DNA from: Clostridia bacterium | GTDB lineage: Bacteria > Bacillota > Clostridia > Saccharofermentanales > UBA5734 | Assembly (NCBI GenBank): GCA_009928985.1 | Contig: SABL01000018.1 | Location: 1 to 33,195 of the forward strand | DNA: 33,195 nucleotides | Reading direction: 5' to 3' | Program-made: the position numbers and the translations under genes | Shown here: positions 21,673-31,375 of the stretch, one piece after another | Layout: each line of letters opens with the position of its first letter | Numbering within the stretch: the first letter of the stretch is position 1 | Notes under the pieces: model-generated | The model's input: the letters and a program-made list of their open reading frames with translations, nothing else | Told to the model about the DNA's origin: nothing | The model's database searches: none

Positions 21673-22155
21673 ATGGATATATTCACACTACTTTTCTGGG
21701 CCATTGCCGTTGTTCTAACGGTCGTATCGCTGGTCCGCAACCGGGCCAAGACATTCGCGGCCATGAAAAAATCAAAAGGCATGATGGGCAGCATGCTGAG
21801 CGAAATCCTGGCCATCATCTTTTTGATCGGCCTGGTTTTGACCTACATTCCACCGGAGAGCATACAGTCCGTCCTGGGCTCGGCTAACGTTTACCTGGCC
21901 ACTTTCATAGCGGCTTTGACTGGTAGTGTCACCCTGATCCCGGCGTTTGTCGCTTTCCCTCTGGTCGGATCCCTCGTCAATGCTGGCGCCAGCATCGTGC
22001 CCGCGGTGGCCTTTTTAACCACCCTGACCATGGTTGGAATCGTCACCTTTCCCCTGGAGAAAAAAGAGTTCGGCAAGAAATTTGCCTTGACCAGAAATTT
22101 GATGAGTTTTGGGTTTGCCATAGTGATCGCTTTGGCGATGGGGGTTGTGTTATGA
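21673..22155 (+). CDS. Permease half-protein (ArsP_1/PF03773-like split permease, first half)
   Basis: 160 aa, 4-5 TMs, LTGSVTLIPAFVAFPLVGSLVNAGASIVPAVAFLTTLTMVGIVTFPLE; ATGA overlap with the next gene. Confidence 0.7.
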   Translation: MDIFTLLFWAIAVVLTVVSLVRNRAKTFAAMKKSKGMMGSMLSEILAIIFLIGLVLTYIPPESIQSVLGSANVYLATFIAALTGSVTLIPAFVAFPLVGSLVNAGASIVPAVAFLTTLTMVGIVTFPLEKKEFGKKFALTRNLMSFGFAIVIALAMGVVL

Positions 22156-22877
22156 CTGCTGTATTAAATGGAATCAAGAAAAACCGTCTACTGGCTCTGG
22201 TGGCCCTAGCTTATCTCGTCCTGTTTATCGTAGCTCCGGGCAAGGCATCGTCATCCGTCCAGAACAGTGTCTACTACCTGGTTGAAATGTTGCAGGTATT
22301 GCCCGTCATCTTCCTGTTGACCGTTGTCATCGAAGCCTGGATTCCCAAGGAAACCATCATTTTGCACATGGGTGACAAGTCCGGCCTGTGGGGCAATTTC
22401 CTTTCCCTGGCCCTTGGCAGCCTGTCAGCCGGGCCCATCTATGCAGCATTTCCGATCAGCAAGACACTGCTCGGCAAAGGTGCCAGCATCACCAATATCG
22501 TGATCATCCTGAGCTCCTGGGCTGTCATCAAAGTCCCGATGCTGGCCAACGAGGCCAAGTTCCTTGGACCGGACTTCATGGCTGTCCGCTGGGTCCTGAC
22601 CGTGGCAGCCATCTTGGTCATGGGGGCCCTGATGGGGAAAATCGTCAAGAAAAAGGATCTTCCAGCTGACGATGCGGATGAAAAAGCGACCCTGACCATC
22701 CAGCAGGAATACTGTGTCGGTTGTGGTGTCTGTGTCAAAATGATGCCTGGCCTGTACGCAATGAAAGATAACAAAGCGGTCGTGCAGTTTGAACCAGGGC
22801 CCGGTGTGCCGAGCGAAAAGATCCGCCAGACCGTGCAAAAATGCCCGACCAAAGCGATCGTCTATTTGCCCGAGTAA
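22152..22877 (+). CDS. Permease half-protein (second half) with fused single-cluster ferredoxin domain
   Basis: TM region with SAGPIYAAFPISKTLLGKGASITNIVIILSSWAVIKVPML, then C-terminal CVGCGVCVKMMPGLYAMKDNKAVVQ...VQKCPTKAIVYL. Confidence 0.75.
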   Translation: MTAVLNGIKKNRLLALVALAYLVLFIVAPGKASSSVQNSVYYLVEMLQVLPVIFLLTVVIEAWIPKETIILHMGDKSGLWGNFLSLALGSLSAGPIYAAFPISKTLLGKGASITNIVIILSSWAVIKVPMLANEAKFLGPDFMAVRWVLTVAAILVMGALMGKIVKKKDLPADDADEKATLTIQQEYCVGCGVCVKMMPGLYAMKDNKAVVQFEPGPGVPSEKIRQTVQKCPTKAIVYLPE

Positions 22878-22960: not shown

Positions 22961-22996
22961 ATAAATGCCCCAGATCAAATGATCAGGGGCATTTAT
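22961..22996 (+). promoter_or_regulatory. Long inverted repeat overlapping SD and start codon of the ABC transporter gene
   Basis: ATAAATGCCCC-A-GATC-AAAT-GATC-A-GGGGCATTTAT; right arm includes the SD-like AGGGG and the AT of ATG 22995. Confidence 0.7.
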
Positions 22997-25900
22997 GCGT
23001 ATTCAGTTAAGCAAAACCAATCCTCAGCTTATCCGTTCATTCAGCTTGCTAGTGATTGTCCTGGCAAGCACGTGTCTCTTGCTGGCAGGCTGCCAAAGCA
23101 CCGCCGGGCCGGTCGAGACAGCAGTCCCGTCCAGCACGGTCGTCACCGTGCAAGACCTGGCGCAAACTCAAGCCATCATCGCCGTGGAAAGCGGAACCAT
23201 CGCGGAAAAAGAAATGCTGGCAGCGTGGCCCCAGGCCAGATACCTGTATGTCAACAGCCCGACAGATGGTTACCTGGCGGTCCAGACGGGCAAGGCCGCG
23301 GCCTATGCCGGTGACCAGGCCATCTTTGACAGCGCCAGGCGCGCTGGATTATCTGGGCTGGCCGCTTTGCCTGAAAAGATCGGACAGGATGGTAAAGTTG
23401 CGGTCGGGATCAGCCCGGTCAGCAGCATTCCTGATTTGACCGGTCTGATCAATGCCTTCCTGGCAGAAATGGAATCGGATGGTGTTCTGGCGGATATGTA
23501 CCAGCGCTGGGTGGTCGAAGGTGACTATGCCATTCCTGAGATTCCCGAACCTGCCAATCCGGAACGCACGGTGCGCATTGGTACGACCGGACTGCTCGAG
23601 CCTTACACCTTTTACCAGGGAACCGGCCTGACCGGCTATGAAATTGAAATGATGCGTCGCTTTGCACACTGGGCCAATGTCCGTTACGAGATCCAGACCT
23701 ATGATTGGGGTGGGATCATCCCCGCCTGCGCCAGTGGCAAAGTCGACCTGATCATGAGCAACCTCTTTGACACCGACGAACGCGATGAAACGATCCTTTT
23801 CTCGGATCCATACATTCGCGTGACCACAGCCCTGATCATCCCAGATGATCCCGCAGGAACTAAGCCAGCGAATCTCCAGCCCGATTCCGACACTGGTCCA
23901 GCAACAGGACCGGCTTTGCCCACCCTGCAGGAACTGAATGGCCAGCGCTTTGCTGTTGTCACGGGTACCTTGCTGGACGACTATGCCCGGACCTATTTCC
24001 CGCAGAGTGAAATCATCTCTTTCAATCATGTCACGGACATGGTGACAGCGGTGATCAGCCAGAAAGCAGCAGCCTGCCTGCTGGATGAGCCCGTGGCGCA
24101 GTTGGTGGTGCAAAAGAATCCCGGTCTGGCGATCGTCGAGGAACTTGTCTTGGCAGACGACTATGCCTATGCCGCAGCCAAGACCGAATTCGGAGCCCAG
24201 CTGGCGACCCAGCTCAGTGACTTCATCGCCGCAAGTGACGCCAATGGCACGCTGGACGAGCTCAAAGCCATCTGGCTGGGCAGGGATGAAACGGCCAAAG
24301 TTTTAAGTGACTGGACCTTGTTACCTGAGACCAATGGCACCATTCGGTTTGTCACCGTGGCCCAAGCCGAACCTTTCAGCTACTATCGGGGATCTGAAAT
24401 GGTTGGCTATGACCTTGATCTTCTGGTTCGTTTTTGCGCGACCTATGGGTATGGCCTCGAGATCACCGACACAGCAGCAGGCACGTGGATGGCGGGACTG
24501 GCCAGCGGCAAATACGATCTGGCTGCGGCAGCAATATCCGTCACGCCTGAACGCAGCCAGGCGGTTTATTTTTCGACGCCGAATTACCACGGCGGCATCG
24601 TCGCCGTGGTCGCCACGCCGGCAGGAGAACAACCCTCAGGGCAAGGCCAGGCAAGTGGCCAGGGCAACCGTTCCGCCCGGTTCCAGAGCCTCGCCGATTT
24701 TTCCGGATCGGTCACCGGGACTCAAACCGGCACCGTTTTCGACCAGATTCTTTCTGGCCATATCCCCGGTCTGACCTTCCAATATTTTGATGACATCAGC
24801 TCCATGGTCCTGGCCCTCCAGAGCGGCCGGGTCGAAGCGATTGGTCTCGATGAACCGGTCGCCCGCCTGGTCACGGCCCAGATGGCTGATTTGACGATTT
24901 TCCCCCAGACCGTGGAAACTGACCAGTATGGTTTTGCCCTGGCTAAAGGCAGCCCGCTGACCAGTCAAATCAGTACCCTGGTCGAAGAATTTGCCGCAGA
25001 CGGCACACTGGAAGCCCTTAAGGAAAAATGGTTCGGGGCCGACGAGTCAAAGAAAACCATTCTGGTCAAGCCAGCAGAAAATCCTGTTGGAACGCTGCGC
25101 TACGCCCACGATTCGACCCTCGCTCCGATGGCCTACATCGGCAAAGCAGGTGAATCCCTGGGCTACGAAGTCGAACTGGCTGCTCTGTTTGCCCAGCGCC
25201 TTGATCTGAAGCTGGAAATCACCCAGACCAGCTTTTCGTCTCTTTTGAGCATGCTCAGCAGCAACAAGGCTGATCTGGTCTCAGGGGCGATGTCGATCAC
25301 AGATGAACGCCGCGAAAGTGTCGATTTCCCCGCCTCCCACTACACGGGTGGCATCGTCCTGGTGGTGCGCAAAGCTGATTTATCCGGAACCGAGGCAGCC
25401 GTCGCCAGCTCGAGCGAATTTGAACCAGAACAAGGATTCTGGCGCAGTACAGGACAGCAGCTTGCCAGCAGCTTCCACAAAAACTTCATCAAGGAAAACC
25501 GCTGGCAGCTGGTCTTGTCCGGAATCTGGATCACCCTGGTGATCTCGCTCCTGTCAGCCCTGGCTGGAACAATTTTTGGTTTTGGTGTCTGCCTGTTGCG
25601 CCTGAGCCAGCGCCGCCCAGTGGCTCTGATGGCCAAAGCCTTCATCCGCCTGGTCCAGGGCGTTCCGCTTGTAGTTCTGCTGATGATCCTCTATTATGTC
25701 GTCTTCGGTTCGGTCGACATCAGTGCCATCCTGGTCGCTGTCATCGGGATCGCGATCAATTTTGGCGTCTATGTCAGTGAAATGATGCGGACCGGGATCG
25801 AAGCCGTCGAAAAAGGCCAGATCGAAGCCGCCCTCGCGCTCGGCTACTCCAGGATCCAGACCTTTCGCAAGATCACCTTCCCGCAGGCAGCGCGTCATTT

Positions 25901-26174
25901 TCTACCCGTCTACAAAGGCGAATTCATTGCAATGGTCAAAATGACCTCAATCGTCGGCTACATCGCGATCCAGGACCTGACCAAAGTGACCGACATCATC
26001 CGCAGCCGGACGTATGAAGCCTTCTTCCCGCTGGTGATCACCGCGGCCATTTATTTCTTGCTCGCCTTCGTCTTGACGGCCCTGCTGGACCAGATCGAAA
26101 TCCAGGTCGATCCACGGCGCCGGTCGCGCAAGGTCAGAGGCGTGAAGCAGCAGACAAAAGGGGCAGAGTCATGA
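22995..26174 (+). CDS. Lipoprotein-type fusion: multiple amino-acid substrate-binding lobes + ABC permease domain
   Basis: Lipobox LLLAGC; SBP_bac_3-like lobes repeated (VRIGTTGLLEPYTFY..., IRFVTVAQAEPFSYY..., LRYAHDSTLAPMAYI...); C-terminal permease GIWITLVISLLSALAG...VRLVQGVPLVVLLMILYY...EAALALGYSRIQTFRKITFPQAAR. Confidence 0.92.
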   Translation: MRIQLSKTNPQLIRSFSLLVIVLASTCLLLAGCQSTAGPVETAVPSSTVVTVQDLAQTQAIIAVESGTIAEKEMLAAWPQARYLYVNSPTDGYLAVQTGKAAAYAGDQAIFDSARRAGLSGLAALPEKIGQDGKVAVGISPVSSIPDLTGLINAFLAEMESDGVLADMYQRWVVEGDYAIPEIPEPANPERTVRIGTTGLLEPYTFYQGTGLTGYEIEMMRRFAHWANVRYEIQTYDWGGIIPACASGKVDLIMSNLFDTDERDETILFSDPYIRVTTALIIPDDPAGTKPANLQPDSDTGPATGPALPTLQELNGQRFAVVTGTLLDDYARTYFPQSEIISFNHVTDMVTAVISQKAAACLLDEPVAQLVVQKNPGLAIVEELVLADDYAYAAAKTEFGAQLATQLSDFIAASDANGTLDELKAIWLGRDETAKVLSDWTLLPETNGTIRFVTVAQAEPFSYYRGSEMVGYDLDLLVRFCATYGYGLEITDTAAGTWMAGLASGKYDLAAAAISVTPERSQAVYFSTPNYHGGIVAVVATPAGEQPSGQGQASGQGNRSARFQSLADFSGSVTGTQTGTVFDQILSGHIPGLTFQYFDDISSMVLALQSGRVEAIGLDEPVARLVTAQMADLTIFPQTVETDQYGFALAKGSPLTSQISTLVEEFAADGTLEALKEKWFGADESKKTILVKPAENPVGTLRYAHDSTLAPMAYIGKAGESLGYEVELAALFAQRLDLKLEITQTSFSSLLSMLSSNKADLVSGAMSITDERRESVDFPASHYTGGIVLVVRKADLSGTEAAVASSSEFEPEQGFWRSTGQQLASSFHKNFIKENRWQLVLSGIWITLVISLLSALAGTIFGFGVCLLRLSQRRPVALMAKAFIRLVQGVPLVVLLMILYYVVFGSVDISAILVAVIGIAINFGVYVSEMMRTGIEAVEKGQIEAALALGYSRIQTFRKITFPQAARHFLPVYKGEFIAMVKMTSIVGYIAIQDLTKVTDIIRSRTYEAFFPLVITAAIYFLLAFVLTALLDQIEIQVDPRRRSRKVRGVKQQTKGAES

Positions 26175-27283
26175 TTGAGGTCAAAAACCTGAGCAAAACC
26201 TATGCCAATGCCACACCCCTGACCGCGGCCTGTGCCACCATTGCCAAGGGCGAAATCATCTCGATCATTGGTCCATCTGGCACGGGGAAAAGCACGTTCT
26301 TGCGCTGCCTCAACGGGCTCGAGACACCGACTTCCGGTGAAATCTGGATCGACGGTGTCAAGCTGGGTGAAAAAGGCACCAACCTTTCCCAGATCCGCCA
26401 GAAAATGGGCATGGTTTTCCAGTCTTTCAACTTGTTCTCACATTTGACCGTCGTTGAAAATATCATGCTGGCACCGGTCGACCTCCTGGGGCTGAGTCGT
26501 CAGGACGCCTACAACGAAGCCCTGCGGCTGCTGAGAACAGTCGGACTGGCAGAAAAGGCGCACCATTACCCCGACGAACTCTCCGGCGGCCAGAAGCAGC
26601 GGGTGGCCATTGTCCGCGCCCTAGCCATGCACCCGGACATCCTGCTCTTTGATGAGCCCACCAGCGCTCTGGATCCAACCATGGTAGGAGAAGTACTCAC
26701 CGTCATCCGTTATTTGGCCAAGGCAGGGCTGACGATGTTGATCGTGACCCATGAAATGAAATTTGCCCGTGATGTATCAACACGCATTTTCTACATGGAT
26801 GAGGGCATCATCTACGAAGAAGGTCCACCCAGCCAGATCTTTGATCATCCTCAGAAGAACCGGACACGCGTCTTTGTCAACCGCCTGAAACTGTTCCAGC
26901 GCCAGATCACCGCCCGAGATTTCGACTTTGTCGCCATGGTCAATGACCTGACCGAATTCGCCCACCGGCATGCCTTGCCTGCCGCAAAGACCCTCAAATT
27001 TCAGCAGATATTCGAAGAAATCTGCGTCGCGGTGATTTTGCCTGTCCTGCCGGACACTGGATTTGTGCTTGAATTCATGGCGACAGCCAGTGAGGACCAT
27101 GCACACTGCGAAGTCGAACTGAGCTGGATGGGTGAGCGGTTCCATCCCTTCGAGCAAGGGGATCACCTGGCCATCAAGATCGCACTGGCCATGACACAGA
27201 AAGCCGAATACACGTTTACCCGCGACAAGGATTTGGATGCAACGACAGTCTGGGGGGAAAACAGACTCAAGATCGAATTTTAG
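26171..27283 (+). CDS. Polar amino-acid ABC transporter ATP-binding protein with about 125-aa C-terminal extension
   Basis: GPSGTGKSTFLRCLNGLE, Q-loop, LSGGQKQRVAIVRALAM, DILLFDEPTSALDP; GlnQ-like core ends near residue 240, then a distinct domain. ATGA overlap with the upstream gene. Confidence 0.93.
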   Translation: MIEVKNLSKTYANATPLTAACATIAKGEIISIIGPSGTGKSTFLRCLNGLETPTSGEIWIDGVKLGEKGTNLSQIRQKMGMVFQSFNLFSHLTVVENIMLAPVDLLGLSRQDAYNEALRLLRTVGLAEKAHHYPDELSGGQKQRVAIVRALAMHPDILLFDEPTSALDPTMVGEVLTVIRYLAKAGLTMLIVTHEMKFARDVSTRIFYMDEGIIYEEGPPSQIFDHPQKNRTRVFVNRLKLFQRQITARDFDFVAMVNDLTEFAHRHALPAAKTLKFQQIFEEICVAVILPVLPDTGFVLEFMATASEDHAHCEVELSWMGERFHPFEQGDHLAIKIALAMTQKAEYTFTRDKDLDATTVWGENRLKIEF

Positions 27284-27561: not shown

Positions 27562-27620
27562 GGGATCTTTACTCATCCATGGTATCATCCTAGCATCAGA
27601 AGAATTTGCTGGAGGCTACC

Positions 27621-28682
27621 ATGGATACGGTCCGGGCATTTTTAAATCGCAAGAACATCATTTTTTCCGCGCATCGCTACGGCGTCGATGCCATGGGGGC
27701 TATGGCGCTGGGCCTATTCTGTTCGCTCCTGATCGGCACCATCCTCAATACGATCGGCACCCAGACAGGTTTTGCAGCTTTGAATACGATCGGCGGCTAT
27801 GCCAGTGCGATGTCAGGTCCGGCGATGGCGGTTGCGATCGGTTACGCCCTGCAGGCACCGCCGCTGGTCCTGTTCTCGCTGGCTACCGTCGGTCATGCGT
27901 CCAACCAGCTCGGCGGTGCGGGTGGACCGTTGGCGGTCCTGGTCATTGCCATCCTGGCCGCCGAATGTGGCAAAGCTGTCGCCAAGGAAACCAGGATCGA
28001 TATCCTGGTCACGCCGCTGGTCACCATCCTCGTCGGTGTTGGCTTGGCGGCCTGGTGGGCACCAGCAATCGGTGCAGCGGCAGCATCGGTTGGTCATTTC
28101 ATCATGTGGGCGACCGAGCTGCAACCGCTGGTGATGGGCGTCCTCGTTTCCGTCGCGGTCGGCATCGCCCTGACTCTACCGATATCCAGCGCGGCGATCT
28201 GCGCTGCCCTGGGCCTGACCGGCCTCGCCGGTGGAGCCGCCCTGGCTGGCTGCAGTGCCCAGATGGTCGGTTTTGCCGTCCTCTCCTTCCGCGACAACAA
28301 TTGGGGCGGCTTTTTCGCCCAGAGCCTGGGCACCTCGATGCTCCAGATGGGCAACATCGTCCGCAATCCACGCGTCTGGCTGCCAGCGATCCTGACATCT
28401 GCCATCACCGGTCCGATCGCGACCGTAATCTTCAAATTGCAGCAAAACGGCCCTGCTATCGCCTCAGGCATGGGAACCTGTGGCCTGGTCGGGCCGATCG
28501 GTGTCTACACCGGCTGGATTTCCGATATCGCTGCTGGCAGCAAGACTGCGATCATCGCCCTGGACTGGCTCGCCCTGGTCCTGGTCGTTCTCGTCCTGCC
28601 TGCCCTCCTCACCTGGGTCTTCGGCCTCTATTTCCGCAAAATCGGCTGGATCCGGGAAGGTGACCTCAAACTGGGTGCTTAA
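27621..28682 (+). CDS. PTS transporter subunit IIC (PTS_EIIC_2 family)
   Basis: MDTVRAFLNRKNIIFSAHRYGVDAMGAMALGLFCSLLIGTILNTIG...GHASNQLGGAGGPLAVLV...GPIGVYTGW; SD GGAGG before ATG 27621. Confidence 0.85.
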   Translation: MDTVRAFLNRKNIIFSAHRYGVDAMGAMALGLFCSLLIGTILNTIGTQTGFAALNTIGGYASAMSGPAMAVAIGYALQAPPLVLFSLATVGHASNQLGGAGGPLAVLVIAILAAECGKAVAKETRIDILVTPLVTILVGVGLAAWWAPAIGAAAASVGHFIMWATELQPLVMGVLVSVAVGIALTLPISSAAICAALGLTGLAGGAALAGCSAQMVGFAVLSFRDNNWGGFFAQSLGTSMLQMGNIVRNPRVWLPAILTSAITGPIATVIFKLQQNGPAIASGMGTCGLVGPIGVYTGWISDIAAGSKTAIIALDWLALVLVVLVLPALLTWVFGLYFRKIGWIREGDLKLGA

Positions 28683-29650: not shown

Positions 29651-31375
29651 TTATCGGCGCGCTTTTATTTTCAGCGCCAACATGGTGATGTCATCGGCCT
29701 GCGGCGCCTCCTGGACGAAGGCATCAATGTCGATCTGGATCCGTTTCAAAAAGCCATCCAGAGCAGTAACAGCCACCTGATTAGCGAGAGTGATCAGCCG
29801 GTCATCACCATAGAGCTCATTGTCGGCATTGGTGGCTTCCGTCACCCCATCCGTGTACAAATACAGGACATCCCCCGCACCCAGCAAGATCTCGCTCTGC
29901 CGGTAGACAATGCCTTCCATGCCGGCCAACACGAAGCCGGGAATCGACTTCAGGTAAGTGAAAGCGCTGCCACCGGTCTTGAGCAATGGTGGATTGTGGC
30001 CAGCGTTGACATAGGTCAGCTTGCCGGTCGAGAGTTCCAGCAGTCCCATCCAGGCAGTGACGAACAAGTTGCCACCATTGCCCTCGCAGAGCTGTTCATT
30101 GGTCACAGTGAAAACCTCAGCCGGCGACTTGCCGCTCAGGACATTCTGTTTAATCAATGCTTTGGCAATGGCCATGAAAAGGGCTGCAGGGACACCCTTG
30201 CCGGAAACATCGGCAACAACCACGCATAAATGGTCTGCGTCTGGTTGGAAAAAGTCGTAGAAATCGCCACCGACTTCCTTGGCCGGCAACATGGAGGCCT
30301 GGATTTCATACTCATGGACAGCGGGAAATACCTGCGGCAGCATCGAGGCCTGGATCTCGCGCGCAACATTGAGTTCGGCGCTGATTCGTTCCTTCTCCCC
30401 CGTGATGGTCTTCAAATTGATCATATAGCTTTTCAGCCCGCTGGTCATGTCACTGATGCTTTCGGACAGCAGCTCGATCTCATCTTTCGTGTGAACCGGA
30501 ACCGGTTTGAACAGCAATTGCGTCGGATCATCCTGGGCACGATCGCTCTGGGCCACGAAATCCCGGGCACTGTGCGAAAGGTTGCGGATCGGACTGATCA
30601 CAAAGCGATTGAGGAAATAAATGAAGCCCAAAAGGAAAACTGCGAGAATCAGGATCGTGCCCAGCGCAACAGAAATTAGGTAGCCGCGCATCGTCTCCCG
30701 GATCTCTTCCATCGACAGATCGAGGGCCAGGATACTGACCACCTGGCTATCCGAATCAAAAACCGGCACATAGGCGGTCAGGACATAACCGTAGAGTTCC
30801 GTATCATTGGCGATGAACTGGACCGTGGCTGTTTCTGGCTGGTCTTGCATGCTCGAGGCGATCAAGCTGGCGGTCTCCAAGTCATAGTCAGCATCTGCTG
30901 CATCGCCGATCACCCCAGGTGTGTTGACCGCCGTAAAAAAGTCCGGATCCTCTGCCAGGATATCGGAACTCGTGGCACTGATGACATAGTACATGGTCTG
31001 GAAATCGGCCGGATCCGGAAAATAAACCACATAGAGCGACCGGATCTCAGAATATTCCAAAAACAGGTCCAGCGCTGCTTTCTGGTTGTAATAGGCCTCC
31101 GACATCTCCCCGGTGGCAATGCTCAGGGCCAGCTCATCCCCGTTCAGCCAGCTGAGGGCCTGGTACAGCTGGGTTTCTGCATAGACATAATAGCGCTCCA
31201 TCATACTGGTGGTATGGACGTAATAGCCATACCCACCGATGAAGGTTGCCAGCAGCAGCGCAAACAGAGTGCAAAACAGGATCAGCCGGGTCTGCAATTT
31301 CCTGCGCTTGTTGTGAGCCGATTTCACGAGTGGGCGAGTATTTTCTCCAATAGCCGGTGCCTTGCTGTCAGCCAT
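29651..31375 (-). CDS. SpoIIE/PP2C-family serine phosphatase with N-terminal extracytoplasmic sensor and HAMP
   Basis: TM, about 180-aa extracellular region, TM, HAMP-like NRFVISPIRNLSHSARDF; PP2C/SpoIIE motifs IQASMLPQVFPA, KEVGGDFYDFFQ, VVVADVSGKGVPAALFMA, YTDGVTEATN, DDITMLALKI. Confidence 0.94.
   Translation of the reverse strand: MADSKAPAIGENTRPLVKSAHNKRRKLQTRLILFCTLFALLLATFIGGYGYYVHTTSMMERYYVYAETQLYQALSWLNGDELALSIATGEMSEAYYNQKAALDLFLEYSEIRSLYVVYFPDPADFQTMYYVISATSSDILAEDPDFFTAVNTPGVIGDAADADYDLETASLIASSMQDQPETATVQFIANDTELYGYVLTAYVPVFDSDSQVVSILALDLSMEEIRETMRGYLISVALGTILILAVFLLGFIYFLNRFVISPIRNLSHSARDFVAQSDRAQDDPTQLLFKPVPVHTKDEIELLSESISDMTSGLKSYMINLKTITGEKERISAELNVAREIQASMLPQVFPAVHEYEIQASMLPAKEVGGDFYDFFQPDADHLCVVVADVSGKGVPAALFMAIAKALIKQNVLSGKSPAEVFTVTNEQLCEGNGGNLFVTAWMGLLELSTGKLTYVNAGHNPPLLKTGGSAFTYLKSIPGFVLAGMEGIVYRQSEILLGAGDVLYLYTDGVTEATNADNELYGDDRLITLANQVAVTALDGFLKRIQIDIDAFVQEAPQADDITMLALKIKARR

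Follow-up and report, generated by a model that had tools for sequence, protein, structure and literature searches.

The 33,195-nucleotide stretch of DNA analysed here (the window) contains, on its forward strand at 22995-26174, an open reading frame for a 1059-aa lipoprotein-permease in which lobes of substrate-binding domains (SBDs) precede the membrane part in an order that raises the question of which lobes pair with which. In family-3 substrate-binding proteins (SBPs) the chain runs through most of lobe 1 (1a), then lobe 2 (2), and finally the last strand-helix piece of lobe 1 (1b). A sequence-only reading had treated the first lobe 2 and the last lobe 1 as orphans that might pair with each other as a split, circularly permuted SBP. 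The idea of a permutation stands, but the pairing of the two end lobes does not. The protein is very probably the SBD-permease subunit of a type I importer with three tandem, self-contained and circularly permuted family-3 SBDs, each built as 2-1b-1a, and neither end lobe is then an orphan.

The order proposed for the protein was parsed with lobe HMMs built in this analysis, alongside the Pfam model SBP_bac_3 (PF00497), a model of lobe 1 that consists of 1a followed by 1b. Behind a signal peptide with the lipobox LLAGC and a predicted lipid anchor at Cys33 (22995-23093, identified from the sequence by a lipobox pattern scan), in the extracellular part, the lobe HMMs place unit 1 at 23148-23843 (lobe 2 at 23148-23393, 1b at 23394-23516 and, after the 1b-1a joint, 1a at 23568-23843; profile matches at residues 59-132, 135-173 and 193-282). 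Unit 2 extends over 23925-24614 (lobe 2 at 23925-24161, 1b at 24162-24281, 1a at 24336-24614; residues 313-388, 390-428 and 450-539) and unit 3 over 24681-25373 (lobe 2 at 24681-24926, 1b at 24927-25037, 1a at 25089-25373; residues 568-643, 645-680 and 701-791). E-values for all lobes and the transmembrane (TM) match at residues 839-1031 range from 4e-13 to 1e-87. The lobe-1 starts that had been read at 23571, 24333 and 25086 lie at most one codon from the HMM starts at 23568, 24336 and 25089. The order 2-1-2-1-2-1 ahead of the permease is likewise borne out, both by the PF00497 matches and by the lobe HMMs, and the last 1a (residues 701-791) does continue straight into the permease.

PF00497 hits the protein with an overall E-value of 1e-76 and two full matches, while only profile positions 1-94 (1a) are found in the last copy and only positions 103-130 (1b) in the N-terminal piece. 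The mature N-terminus had been called a lobe 2, and this is correct except that 1b is also present: by the lobe HMMs and by an alignment (E 3e-4) that covers the C-terminal half of solved SBPs, residues 112-234 out of 235, it is an SBP lobe, so the objection that it might be no such lobe falls away. The same applies to the other segments described as lobe 2-like, which do contain lobe 2 but also hold the 1b of lobe 1, and it is this that makes a permuted parse possible. The architecture can be written as [2-1b]-[1a-2-1b]-[1a-2-1b]-[1a]-TMD or, equally, as three [2-1b-1a] units followed by the TM region. PF00497 and the lobe HMMs identify homologous lobe 1 and lobe 2 sequences of family 3, but the units run 2-1b-1a and not in the canonical domain order 1a-2-1b; this is the rotated segment order of a circularly permuted binding protein. 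The rotated order in this protein is real. A mis-called start or a missing upstream 1a was ruled out by a six-frame HMM search, which found no further lobe 1a in the rest of the window, and an assembly artefact by a relative in another genome that shares the three-unit architecture at 75-77% identity end to end, together with purifying selection on all lobes.

More distant relatives (~40% identity) have one unit fewer, and others two fewer, with the rotated order kept. The search for homologues with the same lobe order that the sequence-only reading had suggested found them with one, two or three units as well as in free-standing forms. After removal of duplicates, 39 proteins had one unit, 14 had two and three had three; additional parses gave three two-unit proteins in which 1b went undetected and one more three-unit protein. 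Another 16 were free-standing 2-1b-1a proteins of ~260-300 aa. One of these (P0002, 260 aa) is encoded in the window's own genome (locus L008, 1420-2202, contig C148), in an operon where its gene is followed by its own permease and ATPase genes. In some of the fusions an ATPase is found on the same chain. The parse is not biased towards the rotated order, since in the same run 27 SBPs came out as canonical 1a-2-1b and the GlnPQ-type protein L111 as 1a-2-1b-1a-2-1b-TM. A few proteins do not fit: some frames are partial or cut by a contig end, some seem to be frameshifted, and L124 parses as 1a-2-1b-1a-TM, its frame opening directly with a 1a. In two homologues the coding sequence is interrupted, through either decay or sequencing error. 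The two-unit protein of genome G1086 (L140, 592-2940) is divided by an in-frame TAG, and the first lobe 2 of the homologue in G879 sits in an overlapping frame (L057, 555-4083).

At class level, 18 of 392 genomes had matches that cover both SBD and permease (our own count); the figures were 14 of 190 genomes for the order to which the window belongs and six of 399 for the phylum. Within one family such matches came from 39 of 250 genera, some of them spanning a free SBP gene and an adjoining permease gene. The plasmid collection gave no match. The rotated architecture is conserved across many families.

The small members of the family bear directly on the pairing. In a closed ring, two canonical internal SBDs (1a-2-1b) would be joined by a third made from the first 2-1b and the last 1a. 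The lobe order permits this, but one-unit and free-standing members have only one 2-1b and one 1a, so the 1a that follows is the only partner available. Whole 2-1b-1a units also swap between free and fused proteins. In genome G666 a unit A forms a lipoprotein of its own, whose gene immediately precedes that for a fusion of units B and C with the permease, while in G860 it is fused, as A-B-permease; over 219 residues the two genomes are 79% identical in unit A and 84% in unit B. The order is reversed in G923 for the two units related to these (37-44% identity). In the window protein, unit 1 groups over its entire length with the unit of the one-unit protein L067 as its sister, unit 2 matches unit 1 of the two-unit proteins L058 and L135 (in a quick tree where the position of unit 2 is weakly supported), and unit 3 matches their unit 2, with 50% identity in 2-1b and 63% in 1a. 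With unit 1 sister to L067 and units 2 and 3 like those of L058, the whole resembles a two-unit protein that has gained a further module at the N-terminus. The 2-1b-1a block moves between proteins as a module and is phylogenetically coherent. A single origin of the permutation was considered as well: the tree takes five label changes, yet the starred branches force just one, and the permutation may have arisen once or several times.

The same register emerges when distances between segments of one kind are compared. Among 18 non-redundant proteins with at least two units, distances between lobe-2 segments and distances between 1a segments correlate at 0.77 when each lobe 2 is set against the 1a of its own permuted unit. 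The correlation drops to 0.43 in the ring register; 60 shuffles of the units give 0.32 +/- 0.08, with a maximum of 0.53. Joint loss of the ligand Arg and Asp, used as a second register test in proteins with at least two units, gave p values of 0.09 for the permuted and 0.52 for the ring register, neither of them significant; in one-unit proteins p was 0.006, a significant value but one confounded by phylogeny.

The joints between segments also differ. The 1b-1a joint measures 19-23 residues in every parsed two- and three-unit protein. The 1a-2 joint varies from 11 to 31 residues, compared to 10-16 in canonical SBPs, and in some homologues it is as short as in these (11-14 aa), where joint length alone is undecisive. 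In the window protein both 1a-2 joints are low-complexity linkers with low pLDDT: that between units 1 and 2 (23844-23924) is 26% identical to the 75-77% homologue with a dN/dS of 0.88, and that between units 2 and 3 (24615-24680) has a dN/dS of 0.42, against 0.04-0.17 for the lobes, ends included. The 1b-1a joint is nearly constant in length and constrained, whereas the 1a-2 joint is variable and under far looser constraint. The disordered, fast-evolving segments lie between a 1a and the next lobe 2, exactly where a ring needs a structured hinge, which argues against it.

AlphaFold2 modelled the soluble part of the two-unit protein L135 from 15 sequences with a pLDDT of 88.6 and a pTM of 0.52, and the only internal stretch below 50 pLDDT was the 1a-2 joint at 246-248. 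Foldseek superpositions of this model on canonical SBPs gave alignments of ~240 columns, a length that must cross the 1a-2 joint, with an rmsd of ~30 A and a target TM of ~0.4; in the model, accordingly, the contiguous 1a-2-1b stretch does not form a canonical domain. We infer that a pTM of about 0.5 is to be expected from two rigid bodies that are equal in size and independent of each other, and global scores and superpositions suggest that the two units are such bodies. Folding of a permuted unit as one domain is thereby predicted from the two-unit homologue. The model of the window's own protein is weak (four sequences, pLDDT 60.6, pTM 0.36), from an alignment too shallow for use alone, and has ordered 1b-1a and disordered 1a-2 joints.

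Taken with the one-unit and free members, the exchange of modules, the lobe distances and the linkers, the two-unit model makes the ring closure suggested by the sequence-only reading highly improbable, even though the end lobes are constrained and hold the ligand residues and the 1a-2 joint is near canonical length in some homologues. A domain swap in trans, with the 2-1b of one chain pairing with the 1a of its partner in the transporter dimer, is very unlikely as well. Such a swap is compatible with the sequence of every unit, a homodimeric permease is expected, and domain-swapped dimers are reported for the canonical SBP SP0092; on the other hand, the ~20-residue 1b-1a joint allows pairing in cis, some units are free-standing, with no permease fused to them, and the AlphaFold2 monomers are compact, confident units.

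It would be extremely improbable that the protein is a decayed remnant, i.e. what is left of a canonical tandem after loss of the first 1a and the last 2-1b, with two SBDs still working and a useless half-domain at either end. Duplication with subsequent loss at both ends is one standard route to circular permutation, and may describe how the order arose. As a description of the present protein it is contradicted by end lobes as constrained as the internal ones (dN/dS 0.16 and 0.08) that keep their ligand residues, by the conservation of the architecture in many families, and by the lack of a leftover lobe in any frame elsewhere in the window.

The permease domain (BPD_transp_1/HEQRo_perm_3TM, 25500-26114) is of the HEQRo/PAAT type, as indicated by Pfam and NCBIfam (TIGR01726 at 64.9 bits against a cut-off of 42.2, plus PF00528) and a best PDB match to 4yms (E 1.6e-37). 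It is adjoined on the same strand by the gene for a GlnQ-type ABC ATPase (26171-27283; NCBIfam PRK09493, E 2e-87, below the equivalog cut-off), which is extended at its C-terminus by ~120 aa. The ligand Arg in 1a and Asp in lobe 2 are kept in all three units, and three binding sites per chain are expected, as proposed earlier. In GlnBP-type proteins these residues hold the carboxylate and amino groups of the amino acid, and the substrates are probably polar amino acids, judging from the family and the Arg/Asp pair.

The protein would then work as the SBD-permease subunit of a type I ABC importer of the polar amino acid family. Lobe 2 and 1b would pair with the directly following 1a to make each unit self-contained, the ~20-residue 1b-1a joint bridging the former chain ends, C-terminus to N-terminus, within lobe 1, and disordered linkers would string the units together from 1a to the next lobe 2. 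The chain would be tethered by lipid at Cys33 and, after the third unit, by the permease. As a permease homodimer with two copies of the adjoining GlnQ-like ATPase, the transporter would carry six SBDs that capture amino acids and probably compete to dock, by analogy with the four sites of GlnPQ. The three units are only 19-36% identical to each other, so that their ligands or affinities may not be the same. The two ends of each unit would emerge at the hinge, and the lipid and permease tethers would start there instead of at the lobe-1 helix.

The ATPase extension, at 26876-27283 in the window and at 32 related loci (alignment A4), marks one group of these importers; the ATPases of free-standing permuted systems are without it. 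HATPase_c_2 (PF13581) matches nine of the 33 extensions (best E 1.4e-5), the window's own copy not among them, which suggests a degenerate HATPase_c_2 or RsbW-like domain; a PDB search gave no match to the extension. Near the importer, on the minus strand at 29651-31375, is a gene for a SpoIIE-type PP2C phosphatase with a HAMP domain, and together the phosphatase and the HATPase_c_2-like extension may bring partner-switching systems to mind. A PTS_EIIC_2 gene lies downstream (27606-28682), and a closely similar one follows a homologous importer (L001, 4591-5349). Upstream, at 21673-22877, lie two adjoining genes, either of which corresponds to a portion of the ArsP_1 permease family; a ferredoxin-like 4Fe-4S domain ends the second.

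Among the closest known systems is GlnPQ of Lactococcus lactis (PMC8025302; PDB 6h30), which has two SBDs per chain and is described as having four sites competing for docking. Like the window protein, it has tandem family-3 SBDs N-terminal to a polar-amino-acid permease, a separate GlnQ-type ATPase and several sites that would compete. Its two SBDs are canonical 1a-2-1b, however, with 1b leading into the permease, whereas the window protein has three 2-1b-1a units ahead of the TMD and a permease tether that leaves the end of 1a (a hinge strand), not the 1b helix. Natural permutation is known from TpMglB-2 of Treponema pallidum (PMC4990184), also a lipid-anchored binding protein of an ABC importer, but a single sugar-binding type I domain of another fold class and cut, with no permease fusion. 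Structure comparison has likewise found the related type II betaine binders OpuAC and ProX to be permuted relative to one another (PMC2395249), although these bind quaternary amines and belong to another subcluster. GlnBP, ArgBP and AncQR (PDB 1wdn, 4prs, 4zv1) share the lobes and ligand residues with the permuted units but have the canonical order, and matches of the permuted profile to them always come as two stretches. Among the best 60 PDB matches of each search there was no solved permuted chain: the hits fall into two stretches that follow the canonical order, and only the GlnPQ tandem is matched across the junction. No report of a permuted family-3 amino-acid SBD, single or tandem, was found in the literature searched, from which most subscription journals were missing.

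A second permuted register, 1b-1a-2 (L049, L178-L190), was found in 14 of 37 genomes of one genus (G412 and 13 others, at 67-98% identity). Eleven of these read as a separate SBP gene adjoining a permease gene, L190 joins SBP and permease in a single protein of 535 aa, and for the remaining two the frame length of 541-542 aa points to fusion. It is possible, although we hold this only tentatively, that Clostridia re-cut the family-3 amino-acid SBP more than once, in at least two registers, 2-1b-1a (free, or fused in one to three copies) and 1b-1a-2 (free and fused), and that the 2-1b-1a form tethers both lipid anchor and permease at the hinge.

Family-3 SBPs are textbook folds, biosensor scaffolds and kin of the ligand domains of glutamate receptors. 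Permuted units explain the fragmentary SBDs that profile searches see at the ends of such proteins. With the permuted module occurring free, single, double and triple beside canonical relatives, it is directly testable how binding and the Venus-flytrap motion fare after permutation and, in the same natural series, whether docking onto the translocator depends on the tether point. Tethering at the hinge, if true, may change how open and closed domains dock, and would let units be strung together in varying number and identity.
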